Position numbers and translations under genes: made by a program | Shown: positions 16,163 through 17,240 of the stretch, in pieces | Numbering within the stretch: position 1 is the stretch's first letter | How the letters are laid out: the number at the start of each line of letters is the position of its first letter | From: Patescibacteria group bacterium | GTDB lineage: Bacteria; Patescibacteriota; Patescibacteriia; JAHIZJ01 | Direction: 5' to 3' | DNA: 33,028 nt | NCBI GenBank assembly: GCA_018814765.1 | Contig: JAHIZJ010000018.1 | Location: 1 to 33,028 of the forward strand | The notes under the pieces: generated by a model | Databases searched by the model: none | Told to the model about the DNA's origin: nothing | What the model saw: only the letters and a program-made list of their open reading frames with translations

Positions 16163-16420
16163 CTAAGCTTTAGCCTGTTCTAATTCTTCTAAAATTTTCT
16201 TAGCTCGTTCAATTAAACTTTCATCTGTTTCATTCACCGGTTGTACAGTTGATATTCCTTGACGGCATTCGTGTACTACTCTTCTTCTAAATTCTAATCT
16301 ATCAGTGTTCATATCTTCAGGCAATTCTTGCAAGAGTGTGGCTGCTGTTTCAGCTCTTGACCTACCAGCAGCTGATATGTTGTCTTTTGCTTCACTTATA
16401 CTACTTAATTGTATAATCAC
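16163..16420 (-). CDS. Hypothetical protein
   Basis: 85 aa ORF; no recognised family. Confidence 0.4.
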   Translation of the reverse strand: MIIQLSSISEAKDNISAAGRSRAETAATLLQELPEDMNTDRLEFRRRVVHECRQGISTVQPVNETDESLIERAKKILEELEQAKA

Positions 16421-16574
16421 CCTGAATAATTCACGTTCTTTTGTATTAAACTCTCTTGCATCAGGGCTTTTTGTGCTTCATGGTTCATAATGTTTTATTT
16501 AGTAATAAATTAACTATTGGGTTTACCTCGATTAAAAAGTTTATTTTTCTTCAAGAGTCCCACGGTGGACCAGG

Positions 16575-16590
16575 CCCCGCCTTGGCGGGG
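16575..16590. repeat. GC-rich palindrome
   Basis: CCCCGCC-TT-GGCGGGG next to a tRNA-Tyr fragment. Confidence 0.8.
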
Positions 16591-16660
16591 CGAAGGCCGA
16601 AGCCATCAGATTTATGCCGCCACCGGCGGCACCCCGCCATAGGCGGTGGCAGTCTGTTAA
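16591..16660 (-). pseudogene. tRNA-Tyr anticodon/variable-arm fragment interrupted by a palindrome
   Basis: CGAAGGCCGAAGCCATCAGATTTA (16591-16614) and CAGTCTG (16650-16656) match the intact tRNA-Tyr; about 35 nt of GC-rich palindrome lies between them. Confidence 0.75.
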
Positions 16661-16668
16661 AAGTCACA

Positions 16669-16754
16669 TGGTGGGCCGGGCAGGATTCGAACCTGCGAAG
16701 GCCGAAGCCATCAGATTTACAGTCTGACCCTGTTGACCGCTTAGGTACCGACCC
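16669..16754 (-). tRNA. tRNA-Tyr (GTA)
   Basis: GGGTCGG..CCGGCCC acceptor stem, long variable arm, CAGACTGTAAATCTG anticodon arm, GCAGGTTCGAATCCTGC T arm, encoded CCA. Confidence 0.93.
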
Positions 16755-16802
16755 ACCATGTGACTCTTTTTGTTTATTAATAAATATCTAATGATCTACT
16801 AT

Positions 16803-16868
16803 AGGTGGCATCGGTCTAGTCCGGAGCCTATCCCGTGCTTGACACGTGAACCGCTTTGGTACCGACCC
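16803..16868 (-). pseudogene. 5' half of a tRNA-Tyr-like gene followed by palindromic sequence
   Basis: Minus strand GGGTCGGTACCAAAGCGGTTCACG resembles the tRNA-Tyr 5' half GGGTCGGTACCTAAGCGGTCAAC; then CACGTGTCAAGCACGGG. Confidence 0.6.
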
Positions 16869-16932
16869 ATCACCTGTGACCAAATTTTACTGAAGCCCAC
16901 CGCCGGAATCGAACCGGCGACCTACTCCTTAC

Positions 16933-16967
16933 CCCCGCATCTTGTCGCTATCGCTCCAAGTGCGGGG
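16933..16967. repeat. GC-rich palindrome inside the tRNA-Thr-like anticodon loop
   Basis: CCCCGCA-T-CTTG .. CAAG-TGCGGGG. Confidence 0.88.
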
Positions 16968-16999
16968 CATGCATGGAGTTACCCCGCCTGCCGATCGCC

Positions 17000-17075
17000 T
17001 GGAGCCGATGCGCGGATTCGAACCGCGGACCTACTCCTTACCATGGAGTTGCTCTACCAACTGAGCTACATCGGC
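17000..17075 (-). tRNA. tRNA-Thr (GGT)
   Basis: GCCGATGTAGCTCAGTTGGTAGAGCAACTCCATGGTAAGGAGTAGGTCCGCGGTTCGAATCCGCGCATCGGCTCCA, complete cloverleaf with CCA. Confidence 0.94.
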
Positions 17076-17137
17076 GCCCGGCGACTGGCGGGCAGGTCTA
17101 CCAACTGAGCTAGGTGGACATAATTATTTATATTTAT

Positions 17138-17240
17138 CTGTTGCTCCCTGCCCAGTACCCGAACGAAATGAGTGGTACTGGGTACCAGCTGCCTGTCCGC
17201 CGAAGTGAATGAAATGAACGAAGGAGGAAGCTAGGTGGGC
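17138..17240 (-). pseudogene. tRNA 5' half with two palindrome-type insertions in the D arm
   Basis: Minus strand GCCCACCTAGCT [insert] CAGCTGGTA [insert] GAGCAACAG; second insert carries CCCAGTACC/GGTACTGGG (17151-17159/17174-17182). Confidence 0.65.

Follow-up and report, generated by a model that had tools for sequence, protein, structure and literature searches.

Intact tRNA genes carried in cassettes with inverted-repeat ends lie inside broken tRNA genes of Patescibacteria. The arrangement displays nesting, recurrence, redundancy and stratigraphy, and is accompanied by a clustering of GIY-YIG genes at tRNA genes. Comparison of the sequences strongly suggests that each cassette arose by insertion, that this happened recurrently and that the newest cassette is the innermost. 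The window analysed here is the whole 33,028-nucleotide stretch of contig JAHIZJ010000018.1. A sequence-only reading of it had described palindromic elements interrupting tRNA copies; it had overlooked the main unit, which is a palindrome-flanked intact tRNA placed within another tRNA gene.

Layout of the tRNA-Thr and tRNA-Tyr loci

The cluster at 16564-17240 of the window has the order PSP1, TPR protein, tRNA-Thr(GGT), tRNA-Tyr(GTA), with all features on the minus strand. Exactly two intact tRNAs were identified by ARAGORN and Rfam, Thr(GGT) at 17075-17000 and Tyr(GTA) at 16754-16669, the former being the only Thr(GGT) gene found by ARAGORN genome-wide. The features are, in the direction of reading of the minus strand:

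17134-17240, minus strand: extra broken tRNA-Thr 5' fragment, composed of GCCCACCTAGCT, a hairpin (17228-17192), CAGCTGGTA, a hairpin (17182-17147) and GAGCAACAG (sequence reading)
17097-17119, minus strand: outer broken tRNA-Thr, 5' part GTCCACCTAGCTCAGTTGGTAGA (gap-tolerant alignment)
17076-17096, minus strand: cassette left arm CCTGCCCGCCAGTCGCCGGGC, pairing at 15 of 17 positions with the right arm
17000-17075, minus strand: intact tRNA-Thr(GGT), the cargo flanked by the palindrome arms (ARAGORN; Rfam RF00005, 71.2 bits)
16983-16999, minus strand: cassette right arm GGCGATCGGCAGGCGGG, pairing with the left arm
16972-16982, minus strand: outer tRNA-Thr, middle part GTAACTCCATG, i.e. the 5' anticodon stem and the start of the loop (gap-tolerant alignment)
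16933-16971, minus strand: outer tRNA-Thr, anticodon-loop hairpin of 39 nt (fold z-score -4.7)
16891-16932, minus strand: outer tRNA-Thr, 3' part, i.e. the anticodon 3' side, T arm and acceptor 3' strand (gap-tolerant alignment)
16804-16874, minus strand: outer broken tRNA-Tyr, 5' part GATGGGTCGGTACCAAAGCGGT leading into an imperfect hairpin (repeat)
16669-16754, minus strand: intact tRNA-Tyr(GTA) (ARAGORN; Rfam)
16564-16658, minus strand: outer broken tRNA-Tyr, 3' part with a 35-nt hairpin (16649-16615) after G34 (repeat)

Thus, a 17-nt inverted repeat enclosing the intact tRNA-Thr occupies the D-arm of a broken Thr copy, and the locus reads GTCCACCTAGCTCAGTTGGTAGA, then the inserted unit (CCTGCCCGCCAGTCGCCGGGC, intact tRNA-Thr, GGCGATCGGCAGGCGGG), then GTAACTCCATG, the 39-nt hairpin and GTAAGGAGTAGGTCGCCGGTTCGATTCCGGCGGTGGGCT. 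Pairing is retained between the acceptor strands of the outer Thr (GTCCACC/GGTGGGC), which are distinct from those of the inner Thr (GCCGATG/CATCGGC). Segment 17047-17146 is 84% identical to positions 1230-1333 of contig C7 of G000, the genome to which the window belongs. The Tyr locus repeats the Thr layout, the intact Tyr being preceded by a 5' Tyr fragment and followed by a 3' one; in the outer copy, the T arm is replaced by the hairpin CCCCGCCAAGGCGGGG (16590-16575).

The individual inserts described by the sequence-only reading exist to the base. The Tyr-like one reads CAGACTG, 35 nt of insert, TAAATCTG, and the Thr-like one (16971-16933, minus strand) reads AACTCCATG, 39 nt of insert, GTAAGGAG, its position being after 33 or 34 with a one-base ambiguity; two hairpins also occupy the D arm of the further Thr fragment. 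The hairpins are real, but the working genes are not interrupted, since the hosts are dead extra copies enclosing the intact Thr and Tyr genes.

Two other features were observed nearby. The acceptor stem of the intact tRNA-Tyr is lengthened by flanking inverted repeats (16768-16748 and 16679-16659), and comparable stem extensions were seen, by eye only, beside a number of further intact tRNAs, among them those for His on C114 and Leu-CAA on C112. An 85-residue ORF of unknown function (16163-16420, minus strand) lies between an asparaginase-like gene and the broken tRNA-Tyr.

Broken copies and cassettes across genomes

The 47 intact tRNAs of G000 were aligned, with long insertions allowed, to 392 kb of their own genome in which the real tRNAs had been masked. 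This yielded 15 clusters of broken copies at a score of at least 34, and none with dinucleotide-shuffled tRNAs. Among relatives, the same alignment gave 21 clusters in G002, a member of the family of G000, as well as 12 in G027 and 2 in G034, the shuffled controls again being empty at that score. The expectation that hairpin-broken tRNAs would be found in relatives was thus borne out, with 12 to 21 broken copies per genome in three of the genomes (G000, G002 and G027). Tracebacks in G000 showed that broken copies enclose or adjoin the intact gene of their own isoacceptor, among others for Leu-GAG, Leu-TAG, His, Val-CAC, Arg-GCG, Arg-TCT, Ser-GCT, Val-TAC, Lys-CTT, Gln-TTG, Gln-CTG and Cys. A clean case is Arg-TCT of G002, where a single insertion (CCCCGCCCGCCTCAGCGA, intact Arg, TTGAGGCGAGCGGGGCGGG) opens the anticodon loop of a tRNA-Arg that is otherwise whole. 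A search for isoacceptors present only in interrupted form showed tRNA-Trp to be missing from the intact set of G000. The end of the assembly is the likelier cause because contig C7 stops where Trp would come next in relatives.

Solo hairpins, mostly 16-90 nt long, fall mainly in five parts of the broken copies: 10 in the anticodon loop, 10 in the D loop, 9 in the variable region, 5 in the 5' strand of the D stem and 5 in the T loop. Site-preferring palindromic elements in tRNA-derived sequence, as the sequence-only reading had proposed, are thus upheld and are frequent in relatives, while a strict preference for position 34 is not borne out. Twenty-three of 44 solo inserts fold at a z-score below -2, some rows of the automatic table being weak alignments. 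Within intergenic DNA the excess of hairpins near tRNAs is only about twofold, and hairpin density alone is weak evidence, the regions far from tRNAs being mostly coding. A dispersed palindrome family of another kind, GTCA(T/C)CCCGG..CCGGG(A/G)TCTCC, is intergenic and lies away from tRNAs (L088:3452-3480, L092:10610-10638 and L093:1325-1353).

We then searched 85,488 species genomes with the exact junction between D-arm and left arm, GCTCAGN{1,3}GGTAGACCYGCCCGCC. It matched at 35 sites, 31 of them in tRNA context; the other 4 are in Chloroflexi, WOR-3, Janibacter and Deltaproteobacteria. Nearly all tRNA-context sites belong to Patescibacteria (Moran-, Gottesman-, Kerfeld-, Nealson-, Taylor-, Falkow-, Woese-, Shapiro-, Kuenen-, Berkel- and Portnoybacteria), the remainder being in unnamed bacterial bins and in one bin labelled Nanoarchaeota. 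The exact junction was present in 4 of 389 genomes sampled phylum-wide, which is a lower bound, as the arms vary. At 27 sites an intact tRNA follows the junction within 80 nt, usually between arms CCTGCCCGCC and GGCAGGCGGG; by our own reading of the loci, the intact tRNA is followed at about 21 of these 27 by a GGCAGGCGGG-type right arm, a feature that was not part of the search pattern. The insertion point in the junction set is in the D stem, between positions 23 and 24. When the flanks were rejoined to recreate the empty site, a tRNA was predicted in 13 of 27 cases, and in 7 of these the anticodon was that of the inner gene; random joins gave a tRNA in 1 of 81 cases. The arms pair at 85% of positions, compared with 52% after shuffling, and the sequence CCTGCCCGCC was found 8 times close to tRNAs but not once in 357 kb elsewhere. 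Viral contigs, inspected for carriage by viruses, gave no exact junction match.

Nesting can reach three layers. Locus L224 consists of three Thr layers, of which the innermost is intact, the middle one is broken by the cassette alone, and the outermost is broken by the cassette and two more hairpins; this order of decay is that predicted by successive insertion. L228 also has three layers, its middle layer being opened in the anticodon loop. In another genome, two loci (L235 and L237, JALUUX010000100.1) carry a near-identical 5' tRNA-Lys fragment, hairpin and upstream flank before two different tRNA-Lys genes, a pair that suggests a unit may have been copied within one genome; one of the two has an apparent GIY-YIG ORF. 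An assembly artefact was rejected, because many assemblies made independently show the same architecture, and among them are genomes assembled into 2 and 6 contigs.

GIY-YIG genes and the origin of inner genes

In seven genomes, 35 of 53 short GIY-YIG genes lie within 300 nt of a tRNA, where 1.5 would be expected. A broken same-isoacceptor copy accompanies 13 of the 21 tRNAs with a GIY-YIG neighbour and 24 of the 119 others (odds ratio 6.4, P = 2e-4). Two orders recur: a 5' tRNA half with hairpin, then GIY-YIG, then the intact tRNA (Ser-CGA, Arg-CCG, Leu-CAA and Lys-CTT of G027; Leu-CAA of G034), and the intact tRNA, then GIY-YIG, then a hairpin with the 3' tRNA part (Val-TAC and Lys-CTT of G000). 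One tRNA-linked GIY-YIG protein is weakly similar, below cutoff, to endonucleases of group I introns (TIGR01453). A GIY-YIG gene is missing from the cassette in the window and from many nested loci.

Two loci of G000 that combine a tRNA with a GIY-YIG ORF deserve mention. An ARAGORN tmRNA call (L065:6161-6728, on C102) in fact comprises intact and broken copies of tRNA-Val together with a GIY-YIG ORF. At L086:4782-5137 (on C16), an RF00028 match of 48.5 bits, just below the cutoff of 50, interrupts the anticodon loop of what, once joined, reads as tRNA-Asn(GTT); this insert is probably a group I intron, and a GIY-YIG ORF is located immediately upstream.

Comparison of inner and outer genes bears on where the inner ones come from. 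Compensated stem changes distinguish the two genes in several pairs, and there the outer gene resembles the ortholog of relatives; in Pro-TGG of G002, for example, the outer acceptor is CGGGGAT/ATCCCCG and the inner one CGGGGTG/CACCCCG. Such a mismatch speaks against the outer gene being the simple template of the inner one, because a template would give a matching pair. The outer Arg-TCT of G002 matches the Arg-TCT of G000 at 61 of 69 positions and its own inner gene at 50 of 69, and that inner gene matches a gene of G027, another family, at 70 of 73. This pattern, which would fit a foreign inner gene, is clear for Arg-TCT of G002 and weaker, although suggestive, in Cys of G002, Phe of G027 and Arg-GCG of G000. 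It is not seen for His (50/50) and Leu-GAG (72/74); since the inner and outer genes of these pairs are near-identical, local origin or gene conversion of inner genes appears to occur too. At the syntenic Thr(GGT) locus, a broken copy is detectable at 6 of 22 loci, the others having an uninterrupted gene or only weak traces.

A candidate mechanism, its alternatives and its parallels

We consider it probable that homing-type cassettes insert in tRNA genes while carrying a spare tRNA, leaving a decaying remnant that gathers hairpins. The cassette would be a spare tRNA gene, usually the target's own isoacceptor, framed by GC-rich inverted-repeat ends, and would enter the D arm or anticodon loop of a resident tRNA gene, killing it. 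The tRNA of the cassette would assume decoding, which would make the insertion tolerable; the spare tRNA would thus do for the cassette what self-splicing does for introns. The displaced tRNA would decay and gather more solo hairpins, which may be minimal or secondary elements tolerated since the shell is already dead, and the new tRNA would be a possible next target, generating nested layers. In autonomous versions, a short GIY-YIG nuclease acting in cis or in trans would cut an uninterrupted tRNA gene, and repair from a cassette-bearing allele would copy the cassette in. From the sequence comparisons, we infer that the unit is mobile, that other lineages may be the source of some spare tRNAs and that GIY-YIG cleavage may be the driver. 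Several points count against parts of this. Because the window cassette and many nested loci have no GIY-YIG gene, one would have to suppose that the nuclease acts from elsewhere or has been lost; the near-identical His and Leu-GAG pairs would also result from local duplication; and a single homing site would fail to explain solo hairpins at many positions. Moreover, GIY-YIG proteins in rRNA insertions of CPR bacteria were judged non-homing in their spread (PMC11270868), which counts against homing here. The rarity of the exact junction, seen in 4 of 389 genomes of the phylum, is a further counterpoint.

Local duplication or replication slippage would dispense with a mobile element: template switching at the cloverleaf and at GC-rich hairpins, which would also make the hairpins, would leave the outer copies as pseudogenes. 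Some outer copies are indeed identical or nearly so to the inner gene, hairpin sequences differ widely from site to site, and the lineage-specific abundance fits a mutational bias. We nevertheless regard this as unlikely, given that the ends CCTGCCCGCC..GGCAGGCGGG and the insertion point recur in distant orders, that inner and outer genes show compensated stem differences with the outer one closer to relatives, and that a whole gene inserted mid-gene is not a simple tandem duplication. Another candidate is REP-like hairpins moved by RAYT/Y1 (IS200/IS605-type) transposases, which would hit D arms via GTAG and carry the tRNA by accident. G000 encodes 12 Y1_Tnp proteins, several inserts directly follow the GTAG of the D arm, and REPs do carry a GTAG tag (PMC3733652). 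This motif is, however, intrinsic to the tRNA D arm and is absent at anticodon- and T-loop inserts. Unlike GIY-YIG genes, none of the 12 Y1_Tnp genes of G000 lies within 300 nt of a tRNA identified here (one is at 345 nt), and the variable hairpins do not form one REP family with its tag and consensus. It would be quite surprising if RAYT transposases were responsible.

There is very little chance that the arrangement works at the RNA level, i.e. that the outer tRNA is still used after removal of the insert as a minimal intron, or that its halves are joined in trans through the complementary arms, as in the split tRNAs of Nanoarchaeum. A few outer copies would be perfect tRNAs once the insert is subtracted (L212, L220, L232, L234 and L239), and the arms are complementary. 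Against this, each encloses an intact gene, mostly with the same anticodon, most other outer copies are decayed or truncated, and by inspection the inserts share no splice motif. We know of no bacterial enzyme for such tRNA splicing. The interrupted outer tRNA would be dispensable because intact same-isoacceptor genes exist inside or beside it, and the intron-like reading of the inserts was dropped: the copies that carry them are redundant, many show additional decay, and neither a splicing motif nor a ribozyme was found. In the window, Rfam gave no intron match at gathering or permissive thresholds, and no group I ribozyme core was identified.

The proposed cassettes share traits with several known systems. 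Group I introns that occupy the anticodon loops of bacterial tRNAs lie near position 34 and are sometimes linked to GIY-YIG genes; insertion near 34 is shared by some of the inserts described here, but these have no ribozyme. The closest precedent is the fungal mitochondrial mobile ORFs that restore the gene end they break. In these mORF elements, e.g. those of Allomyces atp6 and Glomus atp6, atp9, cox2 and nad3, an endonuclease-linked insert replaces the displaced gene end with a foreign one (PMC3630166). In mORFs and in the proposed cassettes alike, an essential gene is broken and a replacement of the lost part is supplied, the native piece being left downstream as a remnant by mORFs; however, mORFs concern the 3' ends of mitochondrial protein genes, whereas here bacterial tRNA genes receive what is often a complete spare between palindromic arms, in nested fashion. 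Phage T4 SegB is a free-standing GIY-YIG homing endonuclease of a tRNA region (PMC2988022), likewise a GIY-YIG gene among tRNA genes and linked to the inheritance of that region, but it is located in intergenic tRNA DNA of a phage, and palindromic arms or broken tRNA shells are not described in that paper. The double-hairpin and repetitive hairpin-forming elements of fungal and sponge mtDNA insert in intergenic DNA and RNA genes, those of Allomyces without flanking duplications (PMC2800124). They resemble the present hairpins in being short and in inserting into RNA genes, but they are organellar and have no spare gene, and tRNA targeting is not reported in that study. REP and Rickettsia palindromic elements are short bacterial palindromes, both intergenic and intragenic, with a GTAG or CGTC tag and a family consensus (PMC3733652), whereas here the ends are CCTGCCCGCC/GGCAGGCGGG, the interiors are variable and the cargo is an intact tRNA. 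Our search of open-access papers turned up none that describes, for Patescibacteria, either nested tRNA genes or GIY-YIG genes linked to tRNAs.

We give an even chance to the broader proposal that these cassettes form a phylum-wide class of Patescibacteria mobile elements which carry a complete spare of the essential tRNA they disrupt, are harmless without splicing, and successively replace tRNAs from the inside, partly by alien isoacceptors, leaving nested dead shells. For tRNA annotation, caution is needed, as nested loci yield fragments and false tmRNA calls. If the proposal is true, a whole spare would be a third route, next to self-splicing and the restoration of one gene end, by which a selfish element can reside harmlessly within an essential RNA gene. 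It would also give many small GIY-YIG nucleases of CPR bacteria a role, explain how tRNA genes may turn over and be replaced horizontally in minimal genomes, and leave in these genomes a layered record of successive invasions.
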